Shown: positions 5,697 to 34,139 of the stretch, one piece after another
How positions within the stretch are numbered: position 1 is the stretch's first letter
How the letters are laid out: every line of letters starts with the position of its first letter
IMG/VR virus record: IMGVR_UViG_3300031578_000184
Location: 1-34,671 of that record
Reading direction: 5' to 3' (one strand)
Origin: a virus
Length of the DNA: 34,671 nt
Program-made: the position numbers and the translations under genes
Notes under the pieces: generated by a model
Database searches by the model: none
Seen by the model: the letters and a program-made list of their open reading frames with translations, nothing else
What the model was told of the DNA's origin: nothing

Positions 5697-6365
5697 TTAA
5701 ATTATAATACCTAAATATTGTTTAAGCTCTTCTTGCGAATACTTAGCCAAGATTGTTTCGGCTGTTTTTTCGGACATAAATCCTGTTGTTCTGATTCTAT
5801 ACTGCTTAAGCTCGCCAATGCTAAAAAAACCTCTATCATAATTGTAGATAATGTAACATGTATCTTCATTTGTTTCTGCACTATAATTAGCAACCCACCC
5901 CTCTTCAGCATTCAACCGATCAATCTCAAACTGTATCTCTAGCTGTTTTGTAAGCTGTTGGGTTTTCTTTTCGGCTAGATTGATGTCTTCTCTAAGAAAT
6001 ATTAAACCATTTCGCAATTCGTTTTGATAGAGGCTTTTTTGGTACTTTGCGGTATTCATCCATCGCATGCCGTCTTTGTCTAATATTTCGGTTGTAAAGT
6101 TGCCAGAGTTACAATGTTGATTTATCCAAGTAACTTCTGTGCCCTCCTCAAGCTCGCTAATAATCGAGCCGTCAGGGCGTTTTAGTATGGCTGGTTTTTC
6201 GTATTCGATTTGGAAAAATTCGGGGTAATTTAAAATATCTTGTATGTTAACTTGCAGTAAATCAGGTAAATTAATCTCTGAATATTCTTTTACAGATTCT
6301 AAATTTAACTTATCTGAAAAAGGAAAGTTTTTAATTATTGTTATTGATTTGATTTTTTGGGTCAT
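5697..6365 (-). CDS. Hypothetical protein (222 aa)
   Basis: Soluble, with an N-terminal alpha/beta part, a helical K/Q/E-rich stretch (about 115-155) that could be a short coiled coil, and a C-terminal domain (RGFFSIGELKQYRIRTTGF, then a helix). No family recognised and no catalytic motif seen. A promoter-like pair lies upstream at 6394-6422, so it may head a short unit with the two or three genes to its left. Confidence 0.65.
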   Translation of the reverse strand: MTQKIKSITIIKNFPFSDKLNLESVKEYSEINLPDLLQVNIQDILNYPEFFQIEYEKPAILKRPDGSIISELEEGTEVTWINQHCNSGNFTTEILDKDGMRWMNTAKYQKSLYQNELRNGLIFLREDINLAEKKTQQLTKQLEIQFEIDRLNAEEGWVANYSAETNEDTCYIIYNYDRGFFSIGELKQYRIRTTGFMSEKTAETILAKYSQEELKQYLGIII

Positions 6366-21433: not shown

Positions 21434-21459
21434 CAAAATCCGTGTAACATTTTTAGATA
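21430..21459 (+). promoter_or_regulatory. Promoter of the long leader
   Basis: TTGACA (21430-21435), 18-bp spacer, TAGATA (21454-21459). The transcript would run into about 425 nt without a gene before the ATG at 21891. Confidence 0.5.
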
Positions 21460-21890
21460 CATTTAACTTTACCAATTTAAGAGGTTGATAAAGCCAAAAA
21501 GAAAACCCACCTTTTCGGGTGGGGCTTTAAGAAGTTGATAACTCAATCTTTTTAAATTTAATTCTTTTGTCAAGTTTTTTTCTTATTTCTTGATCAACTT
21601 CAATAATAAGAACGGCTTTAACTTACTACCGTTGGATAATGACAACGCTCTAGTGCTAAGATAAATTAGTAGGCCGTGAACATTTACTGCTCTTATTAGC
21701 TAACTAACCAAAAACTAATAACCAGATGACGATCCGATAGGAGGGGTGAACATAAGTAAGTCTCGTCAACTTCGCCAAATGAAAAAGCTCAAGGCTCATT
21801 CTCAGGTATAATTTCACTCCATTCTCTTAAAGTAATATTTAGGGGGATGGGGGGTGAAACAACCTTTTCAAAACTAAAACTATTCTAGGT
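21460..21890 (+). ncRNA. Long structured leader or RNA gene, no CDS
   Basis: No credible protein frame. GC content rises and stems appear. AAAGCC/GGCTTT (21490-21495 with 21523-21528) encloses CCCACC/GGTGGG. AACGG/CCGTT and CGTTG/CAACG near 21611-21647 overlap and exclude each other. TGACGA/TCGTCA (21727-21732 with 21763-21768) encloses AGGAGGGG. A G-rich stretch (GGGGGATGGGGGG) lies at about 21842-21854. Mutually exclusive stems suit a regulatory leader. Whether this is one RNA, several, or partly minus-strand is not clear. Confidence 0.5.
21492..21524 (-). terminator. Terminator, best read on minus strand
   Basis: CCCACC (21506-21511) and GGTGGG (21519-21524) with a 7-base loop. On the minus strand the hairpin is followed by TTTTCTTTTT, a good U-run; on the plus strand it is followed by GCTTTAAG, which is poor. 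It hints at a minus-strand transcript from the right, though no minus gene is evident. Confidence 0.5.
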
Positions 21891-22112
21891 ATGAACGAAA
21901 CAACTCATAATATTATAATTTATACACAGGATTTAAAAATACTAAATAAAATCAAATCTTTTTTTAGAAAAAGACATATGCTAGTTGATGGTGGTTATTT
22001 AGTTGTTTCAAACTATACAGAAATTCAAGTTTTTTTATATGAAAATAATATTAAAGGTCAATTAGAAAATAAAGGCAAAACTTTAAGTTGGTTATTAATA
22101 GACAAAAAGTAA
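21891..22112 (+). CDS. Hypothetical protein (73 aa)
   Basis: Small basic alpha/beta protein (KIKSFFRKRHMLVDGGYLVV). Its last codons (IDKK, stop) are made by the first copy of the TTAATAGACAAAAAGTAAAA motif, which in later copies lies mainly after stop codons. First gene of the small orphan block. Not recognised. Confidence 0.55.
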   Translation: MNETTHNIIIYTQDLKILNKIKSFFRKRHMLVDGGYLVVSNYTEIQVFLYENNIKGQLENKGKTLSWLLIDKK

Positions 22113-22132: not shown

Positions 22133-22396
22133 ATGGTATATTTTATTAATCATTACATAAACAACGTTTTTCAGTTTTTTGGGTTTAATTTACGTTGCAG
22201 TAAAGTTGAATATATGTATAACTTTAAAAAAGACATTGCTATTTACGAAATACCAATGGACGCAGATAGATATTTAACTTTAAAAAGGAAAGGGTTTAAA
22301 AGTATAAATGTTTGGGAATTTAAAAAAATATCTAAAAGACAAAAAAAATCTAATCGAAAGCTAACACCAAAAGAATTAGATTATTTATTTGATTAA
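22133..22396 (+). CDS. Hypothetical basic protein (87 aa)
   Basis: Hydrophobic/aromatic start (FINHYINNVFQFFGFNL), an alpha/beta middle, then a basic tail (KKISKRQKKSNRKLTP). Stop TAA belongs to copy 2 of the recurring motif. Not recognised. Confidence 0.55.
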   Translation: MVYFINHYINNVFQFFGFNLRCSKVEYMYNFKKDIAIYEIPMDADRYLTLKRKGFKSINVWEFKKISKRQKKSNRKLTPKELDYLFD

Positions 22397-22412
22397 TAGA
22401 CAAAAAGTAAAA
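22393..22412 (+). repeat. Recurring 20-bp motif, copy 2
   Basis: Identical to copy 1 over 24 bp from its first T. Here TAGACA (22397-22402), 17 bp, and TTATAT (22420-22425) could also act as promoter for the RNA starting near 22433. Confidence 0.85.
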
Positions 22413-22432
22413 AATAGTTTTATATTATATCA

Positions 22433-22566
22433 GGAAGCTAAAAGGTTGTAGGTTCAAATCCTACTTCCAACGTTGGAATATCCTCGGTAGTGTTAGGTAG
22501 AGGAATTAAGAGCTTAAAAGGTTGTGGTAAAACTACCAGCTGCAACCTGCTCTTAATTGGTTTTTA
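22433..22566 (+). ncRNA. tRNA-like RNA with permuted order of parts
   Basis: A canonical T-arm, GTAGG-TTCAAAT-CCTAC (22448-22464), preceded by AGGTT like a variable loop, is followed by TTCCAAC (22465-22471). GTTGGAA (22472-22478) follows at once and is its exact 7-bp complement, as a 5' acceptor strand would be. Then come TA and a D-arm-like hairpin with stem TCCTC/GAGGA, whose loop ends GGTA (22481-22504). A long hairpin closes the RNA: AATTAAGAGC/GCTCTTAATT (22504-22513 with 22549-22558) enclosing AGGTTG/CAACCT and TGGTA/TACCA, then TTTTT. No normal anticodon arm or CCA was found. Possibly a permuted or decoy tRNA; an attP-like tRNA fragment is the alternative. Confidence 0.55.
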
Positions 22567-22585
22567 GTTACAAGCTTTTAGGTTC

Positions 22586-22605
22586 TTAATAGACAAAAAT
22601 TAAAA
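22586..22605 (+). repeat. Recurring 20-bp motif, copy 3
   Basis: Same motif with one change (AAAAATTAAAA); lies between the tRNA-like RNA and the gene at 22611. Confidence 0.8.
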
Positions 22606-22610
22606 CAATT

Positions 22611-22880
22611 ATGACTAAAGAACAAATTTACAATAAATATGATTTTGAAGCTGATTTTACAGATAAAAATTATGCACAAAAAGGAACACTTGCCACCAGA
22701 ACAGCTACAGATACAACTTATTCTGTTGTAATTAGTAAAACAACCCAAGCTCAATCTGCGACACTACTGCTCGAAATAACTTTACCTGGAGATGTAAATA
22801 GTAATATTATTACTAGATTACAGCAAGGCGAGTTTGATATTGACCAGGTTAGAATTACCAAGCGACCAATTGGTTATTAA
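22611..22880 (+). CDS. Hypothetical protein (89 aa)
   Basis: Beta-rich centre (ATLLLEITLPGDVNSNIITR) with polar ends, soluble. Its TAA stop is part of copy 4 of the recurring motif. Not recognised. Confidence 0.55.
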   Translation: MTKEQIYNKYDFEADFTDKNYAQKGTLATRTATDTTYSVVISKTTQAQSATLLLEITLPGDVNSNIITRLQQGEFDIDQVRITKRPIGY

Positions 22881-23174: not shown

Positions 23175-23594
23175 ATGAAAGGTTTAACAGCGAAACAAGA
23201 AAAGTTCTGTCAATTAGTAGCGAGTGGCAAAGGTCAAAGTGATGCCTATAGAGGCAGTTATAACGCTGAAAATATGAGTGACCAGGCGATTTATGTTGAA
23301 GCTTATGAGTCAATGCAAAACCCTGACATAGCCCTTAGAATTAAAGAAATACAAGACGAAATGGCTGAAGCAATAAAAATAACTGTTTTTTCTGAAGTGG
23401 CAGATTTAAAGAAAATTGAAGAGTTAGCGAGTAAAGCAATTCACGGCAAATATCAAAATAGTTATGATTTATCCAATTGGATTAATGCAAAAAAAGAGGT
23501 TGCTAAATTATTAGGGTTGTATGCGCCAACTAAAACACAAGGTGAAATAACAGTTAAAGAGGCCCCAAAGTTGGAAATTGATTTAAATGATTAA
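23175..23594 (+). CDS. terS: Terminase small subunit
   Basis: 139 residues. LTAKQEKFCQLVASGKGQSDAY is the hallmark helix-turn-helix start of this family, followed by SMQNPDIALRIKEIQDEM and a helical oligomerisation region. It recognises phage DNA and hands it to the large subunit, whose gene overlaps its end by 8 bp. ATG follows AAAGGGTTTATT, one of the few sites with a weak ribosome-site-like stretch. Confidence 0.9.
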   Translation: MKGLTAKQEKFCQLVASGKGQSDAYRGSYNAENMSDQAIYVEAYESMQNPDIALRIKEIQDEMAEAIKITVFSEVADLKKIEELASKAIHGKYQNSYDLSNWINAKKEVAKLLGLYAPTKTQGEITVKEAPKLEIDLND

Positions 23595-24993
23595 ATTAAA
23601 ATACAAACCAGACCCAAAATGGCTTGACTTTTATAAAGGCGACTGGGATTTAGCTGTTTTAATTGGAGGCCGTGGAAGTGGTAAAACTTGGAATGCTGGA
23701 AACTTTACAACCCTAGAAACCTTTAAAAATCCTAGCTATAGGACTTTAGTATTGCGAGATGTTTCAAGCTCTATTAGTCAAAGTATCTTACAGAATATTA
23801 AAAGTCGGTTTAGTTTATTAATGACAAAATTAGAAGGAGCTTTTGACTATGTATTTGAAATACAAGAAAGTCAGGTCAAAAACAAACTTACTGATTCAGT
23901 AAACATACTAACAAAAGGTTTTAGACAGTCAAGGGTGGAACAACAAGCCGATTTAAAAGGTTTTGAAGATATTGACCTTGCTTTAATCGAAGAGGCTGAG
24001 GATTTACGAGATGTAGAGCGTGTAAACACTTTAATTGATACTTTAAGAAAGGAAGGCCACAAAGTAATAATTATCTTAAACACTCCTGATTTAGAACACT
24101 GGGTGGTTAAAAAGTATTTCGATTATAAAATAAGTAAATTTGGAGGATTCTTTAAATTGATACCTAAACAACTAAATAGAGTCTGCCAGGTTATAGTTGA
24201 CTATAGGGACAACCCACACTTGCCAGAACAGACTACTAATAATTATTCTAGCTATAATAACCCCGATAGTGAGAATTACAACCCCGATCATTATGCAGGT
24301 AAAATCTTAGGTTTAGCTACAGAAAATCAAAATGTATTAAGGAAATTCAACAGTCAAAAAGTATTAGCTATTAAAACAGTAGAGCCTATTGATATATTAG
24401 ACCAAGTGAAAATCTTTAGAAAACCAGAAGCAAATCAAATATATAGCTTAGGAATAGATCCAAGTTCAGGACTAGGAAAGGATTTTACAGCTTTTAGTTT
24501 AAGAGGCTTTTATGCCAATAGCGATGGTAAATACCCGTTGTATGCACAGATGAAAGCAAAGGTTGATGAAGAGACAACTGTTAAATTAGCATTGAACTTA
24601 GCTAATTGGTATAGTAAATTTGGCAGGGTATTAATAACACCAGAGTCAAACTTTGGGAGCTACGTCACAACTACAATTAAAAATAGCTATAACCAGGATT
24701 TAGTTTATAAAAGGTATATTCAAGATCCTACAGTTGCTTATGATAAGCAAATTGGAGACTTTGGATTTAAAACTACAAGTGCAAATAGGGACAATATAAT
24801 TAATGAATTTGTAACAATGTTTAAGACTAATAAGCTAGAAATAATCAATAAAGATGAGGTTGAAGAAATGCTTAATTTCGTATGGAATGACGAAAAGAAA
24901 AGATATGAAGCGTTAGAGCCAGCACATGATGATTTGCTTATGGCAGACTTTATTTGTGTTGCAGGGTTTGACTACATTAGACAATATCTTTAA
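23587..24993 (+). CDS. terL: Terminase large subunit
   Basis: 468 residues, usual size. ATPase: Walker A GGRGSGKT (27-34), Walker B LALIEE (131-136), coupling segment IIILNTPD. Nuclease (RNase H fold): SLGIDPSSG with D291, TPESN with E353, and AHDDLLMA near the end. It drives DNA into the procapsid and cuts the concatemer. The circular map means the end type cannot be read directly; headful packaging would fit circular permutation. Confidence 0.95.
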   Translation: MIKLKYKPDPKWLDFYKGDWDLAVLIGGRGSGKTWNAGNFTTLETFKNPSYRTLVLRDVSSSISQSILQNIKSRFSLLMTKLEGAFDYVFEIQESQVKNKLTDSVNILTKGFRQSRVEQQADLKGFEDIDLALIEEAEDLRDVERVNTLIDTLRKEGHKVIIILNTPDLEHWVVKKYFDYKISKFGGFFKLIPKQLNRVCQVIVDYRDNPHLPEQTTNNYSSYNNPDSENYNPDHYAGKILGLATENQNVLRKFNSQKVLAIKTVEPIDILDQVKIFRKPEANQIYSLGIDPSSGLGKDFTAFSLRGFYANSDGKYPLYAQMKAKVDEETTVKLALNLANWYSKFGRVLITPESNFGSYVTTTIKNSYNQDLVYKRYIQDPTVAYDKQIGDFGFKTTSANRDNIINEFVTMFKTNKLEIINKDEVEEMLNFVWNDEKKRYEALEPAHDDLLMADFICVAGFDYIRQYL

Positions 24994-25022: not shown

Positions 25023-26588
25023 ATGTTACCAAACTATATTCTCCAAGACAAGAAAAATCCACGCCACGAACGTTATACAGTAGCCAATAATCTATATTAT
25101 GGTCAACATTACAAAGTCTTTAATATTAACGAGCAGGAGCATAAAAACATTGCTTATGAATACCTTTGTTACGGTATTATTAAGCAAGCTATTGATACTA
25201 AAGTTGATTTGATTTGGCATGAAAAACCCTTGATTACTTTTGACAATGAACAGTTGCAAAAAGAGTGGGATGTACTTAGAGATACCACAGACTTTGATGA
25301 AACACTATCAGAATTTACCAGAAATATTTATTTAAATGGTGATTCAGTATTAAAAATAGTCATTGATAAAACAGACGAAACAGCTAAAGCAGATGATTAT
25401 CAAGTAGCTCTTTACAACATAAACCCTAGCAATTGGATTCCAGATTATGTACAAAACAATCCTAATAAATACCCGAGTAAACAATCTTTTAAAATGGAAA
25501 AAGAAGTTACCGACAGCCAAGGTAAGAAACTTTTTGAAGCTTATTTAATCGAAACACATATTCCAGGCCAGATAATTTGGACCGCTTACAGAGAATATGA
25601 TACAAACGATAACAAGTACCAAGAAATAAGTCCAATTGAAGATTGGGAAATGGAGTTGCAAGGCGTATTAGAAACCCTGGAAGGACGTCAAAAGAAAGGT
25701 TTAGAAATAGTTTATAACACAGAATGTGATTATTCTTTAATCCAGTTTGTTAGAAATAATATCAATTTTGATGACTTTTATTCCAAATCAGATTTATCTT
25801 TACCAGTTATATCAAAACTAAATACTTTAAACAACTATTCCAATTTAGCTGATACTGTTATAGTCAGCAATGTATTTCCGAAACTATTAGCTGGTGAAAG
25901 CTTGACTAAGCTGATGAACAGAATGGTAGAGGAAATGAACCAGAGCAGGAATACAGACGCTCCAAATAGTTTACTAGAAACACCAACGGTACAATTTGCT
26001 AATGCTAAAACTTACATGCAGACACAGATATGGAGGGATTTTGTAGCACAATCAAGAATATTGCCAAGCGATGGACGAGGTGAGACTAAATACCTACAAA
26101 ACGACTTTGACCTTGAACAGTTAAGAAAACAATCCGAAATATTTTTAAAAGCTATCATGACTGAACTTGGTATTTCCGAAGTTTTATATAATTCAAGTAT
26201 AACAACTGGGGCTTTGTCAGGCGTAGCATACAAAAGACTTTTGACTTTAACTATAAATGAAATTGAACACACAAAAAGAATACTAGAACCTTTTATTAAA
26301 AAGACTGTATTTACTTTGTTACAATTAGCAAAAACAAATGGATTGATTAAAGCCGAACCAGATAAACCAAGTGTTAAATTCTTTGATGGAATAGTAAACG
26401 ACCAAACTCAAGATTTAGCTGATTTAGTTTTAAAGGTACAAAATAACCTATTGCCATTAAAAGAAGCTGTTATGCAAGCTAACGATGTAACAGCTGAACA
26501 GGCCGAAACATACCTGCTAGATGTAACACCAGAGCCCGTTGCAGAACCCCTAGCTCTTGACAATAATGATAACACTTTATCTAACTAA
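25023..26588 (+). CDS. Portal protein
   Basis: 521 residues, with the pattern of SPP1/HK97-type portals: an N-terminal wing, a stem-helix region, a long acidic helix near the end (LADLVLKVQNNLLPLKEAVM) and ETYLLDVTPEP. Position between terL and the scaffold is decisive. It forms the dodecameric ring for DNA entry and for attachment of the connector. Its last codons form a hairpin that recurs elsewhere. Confidence 0.9.
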   Translation: MLPNYILQDKKNPRHERYTVANNLYYGQHYKVFNINEQEHKNIAYEYLCYGIIKQAIDTKVDLIWHEKPLITFDNEQLQKEWDVLRDTTDFDETLSEFTRNIYLNGDSVLKIVIDKTDETAKADDYQVALYNINPSNWIPDYVQNNPNKYPSKQSFKMEKEVTDSQGKKLFEAYLIETHIPGQIIWTAYREYDTNDNKYQEISPIEDWEMELQGVLETLEGRQKKGLEIVYNTECDYSLIQFVRNNINFDDFYSKSDLSLPVISKLNTLNNYSNLADTVIVSNVFPKLLAGESLTKLMNRMVEEMNQSRNTDAPNSLLETPTVQFANAKTYMQTQIWRDFVAQSRILPSDGRGETKYLQNDFDLEQLRKQSEIFLKAIMTELGISEVLYNSSITTGALSGVAYKRLLTLTINEIEHTKRILEPFIKKTVFTLLQLAKTNGLIKAEPDKPSVKFFDGIVNDQTQDLADLVLKVQNNLLPLKEAVMQANDVTAEQAETYLLDVTPEPVAEPLALDNNDNTLSN

Positions 26589-27282: not shown

Positions 27283-28254
27283 ATGGCTATTACAACCGAC
27301 GCCTCAATCGCACAGGCAAAAACAACCCTTTTAGCTAACAGACTTTTAAAGCCTTTAGTTTTTTCAAACTTACTTAAACAGTTTGTAAAATCAGACACAG
27401 AATTTGCAACAGACACAGGAGCATATCAAAGAGGGGCTACTCTATCTATTCCAGTTGTACCTACAATTACAACTAATATTGTAACTTCTACAGGTGGAGC
27501 AGTAACATATCCAAAACAAACTTTGACTAATGTTGCTTTAACTTTAGATTCTATCGCTTCTACACCATTTTCTTTAAATGATGCTGATGTAACTTTAGCT
27601 AATGTAAACCCTAGCAATGATATCCTAAGCAATGCAGGCGCACAACACGGTAACTCTATTGAAAGCACAATGATGTTGAACACTTTCAACGATTCAGCTA
27701 TTAATGGAAATGTTATTGGTGCAGCCGCTACTGATACAAACTACAAACTTTTGAGAACTATTTGGAAAGCTTTTTACGATGCTAAAGTTCCAGATACCCA
27801 AACTAAAGTTGTAGTTTTACCTTCAGATCAATACTTTGAACTTTTAGGAGACAACACTGTTTCTAGATTAGTAAATCCAGAAGCAAGCTCAACCCTAGCT
27901 AATGGTGCAATTTTACCAACATTGAACATGATTGTTTTACCTAGCAATGCAACTCAAGTTGGAACAGCTTATACTAACCTTGCCGCGTTAGGTGCAATCG
28001 CAACGCCAGTAGGATTTGCCTTTACAACTGACTCAATCGTTGGAGCTATCCGAGAATTACCAACGGATGGAAATGGTTTAGGTGTTAACCAAGTTATTGT
28101 AAGAAATAACGAAGTAAACCTTGCTACTAGATTGTCAATTAGCTACGATGCTAATGTTATTGGCGGTGATAAAAACTATCATATGGAAACTCTATTTGGA
28201 ACTAAAATCTACAGACCAACTACAGTATTCCCAATTCTAGGAGGTGTTGCTTAA
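27283..28254 (+). CDS. Major capsid protein
   Basis: 323 residues, beside the scaffold gene. It begins MAITTDASIAQAKTTLLANR and has the mixed T/N/A-rich composition of P22/SPP1-like HK97-fold coat proteins that use a separate scaffold rather than a cleaved delta domain. Codon choice is smoother and GC slightly higher than in neighbouring genes, as for highly expressed genes. Position is the main evidence. Confidence 0.85.
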   Translation: MAITTDASIAQAKTTLLANRLLKPLVFSNLLKQFVKSDTEFATDTGAYQRGATLSIPVVPTITTNIVTSTGGAVTYPKQTLTNVALTLDSIASTPFSLNDADVTLANVNPSNDILSNAGAQHGNSIESTMMLNTFNDSAINGNVIGAAATDTNYKLLRTIWKAFYDAKVPDTQTKVVVLPSDQYFELLGDNTVSRLVNPEASSTLANGAILPTLNMIVLPSNATQVGTAYTNLAALGAIATPVGFAFTTDSIVGAIRELPTDGNGLGVNQVIVRNNEVNLATRLSISYDANVIGGDKNYHMETLFGTKIYRPTTVFPILGGVA

Positions 28255-31961: not shown

Positions 31962-34139
31962 ATGTCTTTTCAAGCTGGTTCAGTAACTGCCGTATTTAGT
32001 GCTAAAATAGAAGACCTTACAAATAAAATGAAAGGGGCGGGACGCTCTTTGGAAGAATTTGGCTCAAAAGGTAAAAAATTAGAGGATACTTTAAAGAATT
32101 TAGAAAGGAGGAAGCAACTAGTAGTAGATAAAATGAATTTGCTAGAAAGGGCAGGGCAAAAGAATACAGGGATGTATAACAGTTTAAAGGTTGGATTGGA
32201 AGGTTACAATGATAAAATAAATACTCATAATTTAAAGATTGGAGAATTTATAAATAAAAGCCAAAAGACAAATAGTGTTTTAGGTACGATTGGTGCAGGT
32301 TTTAGTAATCTTGGTAAAATAGGTTCTAAGGCAATGTCAAGCTTATTTGGCTCTATTACTAGAGTAGCTGAAATTGCTTTAGGAAACTTATTAGCAATGG
32401 GGATAGCAAAAGCCAGTCAAGGTTTTAGACTACTATTTGGTGGGGCAGTTGACAAAGCGGCCGAAGCTCAAAAAGCCTTTACAACTTTAGAGATTATATC
32501 TCCAAGATTTGGTCAAAGTGCAGAAAGGGCAAAACAAATAGCAAAAGATTTGAGCAAGTCTTTAAATTTAGATTTAGGAGCCAGTGCGGAAGGCTTACAG
32601 AATTTACTTAAATCAGGTTTAAACTTAGACCAAGCAAGCGATTTAATGAAAAGGTTTACTAACGAGGCTATAACTGGTAAAAGTTCAAGTATTAGTTTAT
32701 CTGAGGCCGTACAAAACTTGTCATTTGCTTATACTACGGGAAACTCAGCCCTTGGAAATTTAAGCGGTATTTCAGAAAACTTTAGTGATATTGAAGAGCG
32801 TGGAGCAAAGATGATGGGTAAGAAATTATCAGCAATGAGCGATACTGAAAAAATGCAAGCTAGATATAAAGGAATGATAGCATTGACTAATTTGACTTTA
32901 GGCTCAGCTGAAAAGTTTGAAGGGAGTTATATTGATACTACAGCTAAAAAAGATTTAGTTTTAGCAAATATTAGCCGTACTATTGGGGAAAGATTAATGC
33001 CAGCGATGAGCAAATTGAACGAGCTTATTATTAATAATGGGCCTAAAATTGAAGCGATGGCGATGGCTTTTGTAGATTTTGGGTTTAAATCAATTGAAGC
33101 TATAAAACAAATACCCGAATACTTTGAAAGATTTAAACAAAAATTAGGAGAATTAAAACAATTTATAGTTGATACAGCTACAGCAATTGCAACTTATTTC
33201 AAACCAGAGTTAGATCTTTTAAAACAAATGTTTGATGTTTTTAGCAATCAAGTGTTGCCTTTTATTATTGCTAATTTAGCTATTTTAGCAGGTGTTTTTG
33301 TTTGGATAGGGGCAAATGTAATAACAGCCTTAATATATGCCTGGGAACAGCTAAGAGAGCCTGTCATGCAGTTTGCTTTAGCTTTAATGGAAGTTTGGGC
33401 GGTGATTGCTCCAGTTGCTACTGTAATTTTAGGTTTAGTTGGGGTTTTACTAGTGGCTTTAATGCCTGCCTTGCAAATTGTTTTTTCTTATGTAGTGCAA
33501 GTCTTTAGTGGCATTTTACAAGTAGTAACTGGAGTTATTAATTTTGTAGTTGGAATAATTAAAACTGGAATTGGCTTAATTTATGGAATATTTACTGGAG
33601 ATTTTAGAATGGCTGGGGAAGGGTTTAAGCAAATTTGGAATGGTTTAGTCCAATTTGTATCAGGTGTTTGGACTATGATGAAAGCCCCAGTTGTAGCTAT
33701 TATTGACGGTATTAAAAATACTTTTAAATCAATTAATTTAATACAAGCTGGTAAAGATGCAATTCAAGGCTTTATAAATGGTATTTCAGGAATGGCAGGC
33801 CAACTAAAAGAAAAAGTAGATAATTTAGCAAATAGTGTTAAAGACGGTATTAAAAACGCCCTAAAGATTAGCTCACCTAGTAAATTAATGATGCAATATG
33901 GAGAGTGGACTGGTCAAGGTTTAGCAATGGGTATTGATAATAGTCAACGTGATGTAGCCACTTCAAGTGCTAACTTAGCAATGGCAACTACAGCCCCAAT
34001 TGCTAATAATACAGTCAATCAATCTAATAGTTTTAACATTTCAGGAACTCAAAACCCTCAAGGAATAGTCCAAGAAGTTGTCAGAACTTTATCAAGAATG
34101 AATAACCTAGCCAATTCAGGCGTTGGCCAAGCAATTTAA
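31962..34139 (+). CDS. Tape measure protein
   Basis: 725 residues, the longest gene. The N-terminal third is helical and charged (KKLEDTLKNLERRKQLVVDK), the middle (about 425-550) is strongly hydrophobic (ILAGVFVWIGANVITALIYA; ILGLVGVLLVALMPALQIVF), and the end has ISSPSKLMMQYGEWTGQGLA, the frequent SPS..F/M...G..GI motif of tape measures. It sets tail length; at about 0.15 nm per residue a tail near 110 nm is expected. The hydrophobic part may enter the host membrane at DNA delivery. No hydrolase domain seen. Confidence 0.92.
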   Translation: MSFQAGSVTAVFSAKIEDLTNKMKGAGRSLEEFGSKGKKLEDTLKNLERRKQLVVDKMNLLERAGQKNTGMYNSLKVGLEGYNDKINTHNLKIGEFINKSQKTNSVLGTIGAGFSNLGKIGSKAMSSLFGSITRVAEIALGNLLAMGIAKASQGFRLLFGGAVDKAAEAQKAFTTLEIISPRFGQSAERAKQIAKDLSKSLNLDLGASAEGLQNLLKSGLNLDQASDLMKRFTNEAITGKSSSISLSEAVQNLSFAYTTGNSALGNLSGISENFSDIEERGAKMMGKKLSAMSDTEKMQARYKGMIALTNLTLGSAEKFEGSYIDTTAKKDLVLANISRTIGERLMPAMSKLNELIINNGPKIEAMAMAFVDFGFKSIEAIKQIPEYFERFKQKLGELKQFIVDTATAIATYFKPELDLLKQMFDVFSNQVLPFIIANLAILAGVFVWIGANVITALIYAWEQLREPVMQFALALMEVWAVIAPVATVILGLVGVLLVALMPALQIVFSYVVQVFSGILQVVTGVINFVVGIIKTGIGLIYGIFTGDFRMAGEGFKQIWNGLVQFVSGVWTMMKAPVVAIIDGIKNTFKSINLIQAGKDAIQGFINGISGMAGQLKEKVDNLANSVKDGIKNALKISSPSKLMMQYGEWTGQGLAMGIDNSQRDVATSSANLAMATTAPIANNTVNQSNSFNISGTQNPQGIVQEVVRTLSRMNNLANSGVGQAI

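Follow-up and report, generated by a model that had tools for sequence, protein, structure and literature searches.

Genomic context of the RNA element

The window, by which we mean the whole stretch of 34,671 nucleotides analysed here, belongs to a siphophage, with the terminase at 23175-24993, the portal at 25023, the major head protein at 27283 and the tape measure protein at 31962. On its plus strand, a gap of 214 bases (22397-22610) between two small ORFs (22133-22396 and 22611-22880, both without Pfam or PHROG match) contains the RNA element described below. These flanking genes are co-oriented and the gene for the terminase small subunit is found about 0.6 kb downstream. No integrase match was found among the selected ORFs annotated in the window, and the TROVE domain of Ro60 (PF05731) gave no match at E-values up to 10 in the record, which may be incomplete.

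The RNA has a slot to itself, with a copy of the TAATAGAC repeat (TAATAGACAAAAAGTAAAA) on either side. This repeat has four matches in the window against 0.08 expected, one of the copies with one base changed. The copies start at an ORF stop codon, overlap the end of an ORF or come directly after the RNA, and resemble a cassette boundary or a phage-specific promoter or leader. Within IMG/VR this repeat was present in one near-identical contig and in no other. A candidate promoter detected by a consensus scan (Table 1) would place the start of transcription near 22431-22434, and the scan of the region found no terminator-like site 3' of the RNA. Another gap of the window, of 457 bases (21434-21890) and with no listed ORF of 50 or more amino acids, contains a minus-strand, terminator-like hairpin (21523-21506).

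Searches for relatives using the terminase, the portal, a neighbouring protein and the TAATAGAC repeat recovered only the near-identical contig, which has 3 differences in 8.1 kb and none within the RNA. The terminase could be aligned with those of Bacteroidota phages at 25% identity or less, so these relatives are too distant to share the RNA. The collections searched contain no independent relative of this RNA from which covariation could be read.

Table 1 Features of the RNA element and its surroundings in the window
Feature	Coordinates	Strand	Basis
Repeat TAATAGACAAAAAGTAAAA ahead of the RNA slot, 19 nt	22394..22412	+	Further copies at 22096, 22587 and 22878
Sigma-70-like promoter match, TAGACA-18-TATATT	22397..22426	+	Consensus scan; sites in the region no more than expected by chance
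Long closing stem, 5' strand	22428..22450	+	Inverted repeat I1 (23 nt); complementarity of 83% with 22569-22591
Module-closing stem P3, 5' strand AAGCU, at the anticodon-stem position	22435..22439	+	Unconstrained MFE of 22428-22518
Variable-loop-like AGGTT	22443..22447	+	Sequence; aligns with the R1 columns for the V-loop
T-arm GTAGG-TTCAAAT-CCTAC	22448..22464	+	Sequence; R1 match
Capped acceptor-like hairpin TTCCA-ACGT-TGGAA	22465..22478	+	Inverted repeat I13; pair probabilities 0.73-0.97
D-arm TCCTC/GAGGA (22481-22485/22500-22504)	22481..22504	+	Pair probability ~0.97; R1 match
Extra long hairpin, 55 nt, perfect outer stem of 10 bp	22504..22558	+	I6, D3; MFE
Module-closing stem, 3' strand AGCUU, overlapping the long hairpin	22511..22515	+	MFE of 22428-22518
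Long closing stem, 3' strand	22569..22591	+	Inverted repeat I1

Structure of the RNA

The first-pass annotation had described a tRNA-like RNA with the 3' half preceding the 5' half, and the T-arm, TTCCAAC, its exact complement GTTGGAA, TA and the D-arm are indeed contiguous at the positions it gave. The two 7-mers (22465-22471 and 22472-22478, I13) follow one another with no gap and, on one linear strand, a palindrome of 7+7 bases can form only a stem of 5 bp with an ACGT loop. The resulting capped hairpin of 14 nt has the same size in four other viral contigs (L136, L151, L204 and L229). TA(T) adjoins its 3' side and is followed by the D-arm, the loop of which has 14 nt and ends in GGTA; this D-loop is long, and the spacing ahead of the D-stem is irregular. 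The structure extends past 22566, where the first-pass annotation had ended it, since the inverted repeat I1 encloses the whole region. The TAAAAGGTTGTGG of the V-loop and T-stem recurs in the extra hairpin, on its inner arm (22515-22527, D3), and the repeat TAAAAGGTTGT has copies at 22439 and 22515. The TAAAAGGTTGTGG copy is followed by a hairpin that resembles a T-arm, though its loop is shortened, and this may be a second T-arm in decay.

Compared with shuffled sequences, 22430-22590 folds into a much more stable structure (z = -5.1). The unconstrained MFE structure of 22428-22518 is a module of the Y type in which a closing stem of 5 bp surrounds a V-region of 8 nt, the T-arm, the capped hairpin of 5 bp and the D-arm of 5 bp. 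In the full-length ensemble the T-stem has a probability below 0.01; it can be imposed at a cost of 3.6 kcal/mol, which tertiary contacts, modification or a protein might make up for. The module and the long stem are mutually exclusive in these predictions, and two forms appear possible for the full-length RNA, a long rod with the D-arm and the capped hairpin but no T-arm, and a permuted cloverleaf of five helices with the long hairpin at the anticodon position. The suggestion of the first-pass annotation that this RNA may be a switch agrees with the predicted competition between the T-arm and the long stem, which in the full transcript would disrupt the T-arm, and the RNA may thus be a conformational switch.

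Searches for tRNAs and attachment sites

Neither a tRNA nor a tmRNA was found in the window by ARAGORN, and no Rfam family matched the region at gathering thresholds. ARAGORN was also run on the two halves in 2352 rotations, with CCA appended, and gave no convincing tRNA: most matches began away from the acceptor and all of them leaned on the appended CCA. The few that spanned both halves (tRNA-Leu aag, intron mode) did so solely with an invented intron, and a complete cloverleaf with an anticodon was not obtained by rotation. A true circularly permuted tRNA gene, with a transcript that is circularised and then cut to a working tRNA, would explain the order of the halves, and circularisation could produce a 7-bp acceptor. 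Against it stand these rotation results and the absence of an anticodon arm, a discriminator and an intervening sequence. Known circularly permuted tRNA genes require bulge-helix-bulge processing, which is not known from bacteria. We regard this explanation as highly improbable, and the algal or archaeal kind of permuted gene evoked by the first-pass annotation gives way to the order of the bacterial Y RNA YrlA. What does hold from that annotation is the permuted arrangement of tRNA parts in a mimic instead of a working tRNA.

A simple origin, which the first-pass annotation had named as a refutation, was a tRNA-derived attachment site or a captured 3' end of a host tRNA. In a GTDB collection of 84,980 species we found no tRNA with this acceptor and no such T-arm plus acceptor end, so the attachment site reading is left without support. 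There are 30 viral stretches with the 18-mer GGTTCAAATCCTACTTCC. Viewed in context, all but the window and its near-identical contig look like ordinary 3' ends of tRNAs.

Relationship to YrlA and to other viral Y-like RNAs

Y RNAs are the partners of Ro60, and YrlA is a tRNA mimic. In the permissive mode of the Rfam search YrlA (RF02553) was the top match among 4227 families, at 17.5 bits (E 0.27), well below its gathering threshold of 69 bits. The alignment covers the full length of the model (1-114 of 114), and the T-arm, the capped hairpin, UA and the D-arm all fall in register. In the YrlA consensus the two ends of the RNA pair into a long stem that surrounds the T-arm, a hairpin replacing the acceptor stem, UA and the D-arm, in this order. 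With default filters, the search of the whole record with RF02553 missed the element, which was detected by the local search alone.

As this score was weak, we built an independent model. The matches to a first generic pattern were tandem tRNAs, and among those listed no hairpin was fully paired. A pattern of a T-arm, 17-19 bases and TAGCTCA was then searched in IMG/VR, giving more than 100 viral stretches among the matches listed, and after removal of tandem tRNAs at least 35 candidates were left, including the near-identical twin of the window. At least 31 distinct viral modules with the same order could be extracted. They have AGGTC-like V-loops, and the capped hairpin frequently ends in a GNRA, UUCG or CUUG-type loop. 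The T-arm and the capped hairpin show covariation: in 28 of the modules 99.8% of the pair cells were paired and all 6 pairs of the capped hairpin had changed on both sides; the pairing of this hairpin was partly selected because it belonged to the filter, which did not include the three variable pairs of the T-stem. TROVE was found in the same record for 16 of the 35 candidates among the matches listed, which identifies the set as Y RNAs. Most of these records had best RF02553 scores of 33-51 bits, and none of the 35 passed the 69-bit cut-off, the 16 linked to Ro60 included. The first-pass annotation had considered this order new to phages, which no longer stands, since the same module is carried by about 30 viral contigs, 16 of them with Ro60/TROVE, among the matches listed.

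The covariance model R1 was made from 28 modules of other viral contigs, leaving out the window, which does not fit the selection pattern. It matches 22443-22504 along its full length with 31.8 bits and an E-value of ~1e-7, which is rough because the calibration was short; the next best match in the window has 14 bits. Ordinary tandem tRNAs score 30-45 bits with R1, so that the score alone cannot separate them from a Y module. It is the exact complementarity without a spacer that sets the window apart from tandem tRNAs. Complementarity of 7/7 between the 3' acceptor strand of one tRNA and the 5' strand of the next was found in only 4 of 969 distinct consecutive pairs of phage tRNAs (0.4%), all four of them duplicated tRNAs. 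These pairs, together with the z-score and the R1 match, place the observed arrangement beyond chance. With this evidence, the RNA of the window is very probably a tRNA-mimic module of the Y-RNA type.

The tandem tRNAs lead to another explanation, a nonfunctional remnant in which the 3' half of one tRNA precedes a second, degenerate copy with its parts in the normal order (22472 to about 22545), the complementary 7-mer having arisen by duplication of a single tRNA gene. The repetition of TAAAAGGTTGT, the match of R1 to tandem tRNAs and the 5 of 7 acceptor pairs that hand inspection retains in the normal-order copy all agree with it, while the 5' half of the first copy is missing, ARAGORN sees no tRNA, and the CCA, discriminator and spacer are all absent. 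Full complementarity is rare even in tandem tRNAs, and neither the strong extra inverted repeats nor the stability of the fold would be expected from decay. We consider such a remnant, duplication origin included, quite unlikely, and keep it because the TAAAAGGTTGTGG repeat within the long hairpin may be a trace of duplication.

It is somewhat less unlikely, although still improbable in our opinion, that the element acts in cis within the late gene block, as a structured leader, a processing site, a message switch or a packaging palindrome upstream of the terminase, its tRNA likeness being incidental or serving host RNases or modification enzymes in cis. Its position among small co-oriented genes shortly before the terminase small subunit, the mutual exclusion of module and long stem and the lack of a downstream terminator-like site are in line with this. 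But the fit of T-arm, capped hairpin and D-arm to R1 goes beyond what a packaging palindrome needs, and the element has a slot of its own between two repeat copies. The Y-RNA-type module is for us the preferred reading.

A phage tRNA array with interleaved halves was observed in contig L057 (5728-6060), and similar series of R1 matches in L049 and L072. The order in L057 is the 5' half of A (AACTCTG, D-arm), the 3' half of B (T-arm, TTGGCCG), GCACTAT, the 5' half of B (CGGCCAA, D-arm), the 3' half of A (T-arm, CAGAGTT) and ACCTA, and 5895-6060 contains a second interleaved set (AGCGCTG/GGCCCAT). Permuted order with 7/7 acceptor pairing is seen in the inner tRNA-like units. In L049 ARAGORN detects one odd tRNA only.

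Viral Y-like RNAs without Ro60

A GTTACTTC-like motif located upstream of the T-arm, which would correspond to the Ro60-binding part, was found in 15 of the 16 viral Y RNAs with TROVE and in 2 of the 16 without detected TROVE. Motif and TROVE were thus concordant in 15 + 14 of 32 viral Y RNAs and discordant in 3 (Fisher p 7e-6, for a motif defined after viewing the sequences). The motif is absent from the window. Since motif and TROVE go together, a group of viral Y RNAs without Ro60 probably exists, in records of 31 to 265 kb of which none is proven complete. In five of the contigs without detected TROVE (L164, L180, L214, L215 and L246) the flanks of the Y-like modules look like tRNA genes, and the modules are seemingly within or beside tRNA arrays. 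A limited literature search found no description of phage Y RNAs without Ro60.

Possible function

The TTCAAAT of the T-loop and the GG of the D-loop would form a tRNA-like elbow. Host proteins that recognise this elbow might bind the mimic; candidates are the pseudouridine and dihydrouridine synthases, and PNPase, which binds YrlA. With a capped acceptor end and no anticodon the RNA cannot be charged or translated, and so would be a decoy or a tether during infection, while the long stem, by competing, may set when the mimic is exposed. By analogy, it may act like the effector module of a Y RNA. A decoy or tether working in trans on a host enzyme that binds the tRNA elbow is our tentative proposal, and we hold it with less than even confidence. 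A broader version is more doubtful, namely that phages have tRNA mimics of the Y-RNA type independent of Ro60, of which the RNA of the window would be an extreme member, with a fourth arm at the anticodon position, an elbow switched by the long terminal stem and a role in trans as a decoy for the host enzymes that handle tRNA. About a dozen other viral Y-like RNAs come from records with no detectable Ro60, and along with them this RNA suggests that the tRNA-mimicking module may exist independently in phages.

Comparison with known systems

The circularly permuted tRNA genes (Soma 2014, PMC3978253) also have the 3' half ahead of the 5' half, but they give functional tRNAs upon circularisation, whereas in the window the acceptor is closed by a loop of 4 nt and no tRNA model fits. 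Closer to it are the Y-like RNAs of the viral contigs L181/L183, L187, L214, L215, L239 and L246, which have the same module and likewise lack a detected TROVE and the GTTACTTC-like motif; several of the records without TROVE are fragments. Unlike the window, these contigs have the standard TAGCTC...GAGC D-arm, in a scan that required TAGCTCA.

The structure of the tRNA-like module of Salmonella YrlA is available (PDB 6CU1, cited in PMC8394870). YrlA serves as a substrate for DusA and TruB, PNPase binds to its tRNA-like domain and Rsr/Ro60 to its basal stem, and a role as PNPase tether has been published (all PMC8394870); it has also been proposed as a competitive inhibitor against anticodon nuclease (PMC7790460). 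Phages with YrlA have been mentioned (PMC7765460), and some jumbo phages have TROVE proteins, the cellular function of which involves a tRNA-like partner (PMC7824862). In comparison with YrlA, the record of the window has neither Ro60 nor the GTTACTTC-like motif, its D-loop has 14 nt and the extra hairpin of 55 nt is missing from the YrlA model. On the other hand, V-loop, T-arm, capped acceptor-like hairpin, UA and D-arm come in the order of YrlA, and the putative ends of the transcript are predicted to pair into a long stem. On sequence and folding, the small structured RNA that the locus would encode is probably of the bacterial Y-RNA type (YrlA), and the siphophage record carries no Ro60; we give this reading less certainty than the module itself. 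Counting against it are the low YrlA score, the comparable R1 scores of tandem tRNAs, the long D-loop, the irregular spacing ahead of the D-stem, the near absence of the T-stem from the full-length ensemble and the extra hairpin. Since the module order and end stem are those of YrlA while the Rfam threshold is not reached and the motif and the Ro60 gene are absent, the RNA is a variant, a Ro-less Y-RNA-like tRNA mimic that falls outside YrlA membership.
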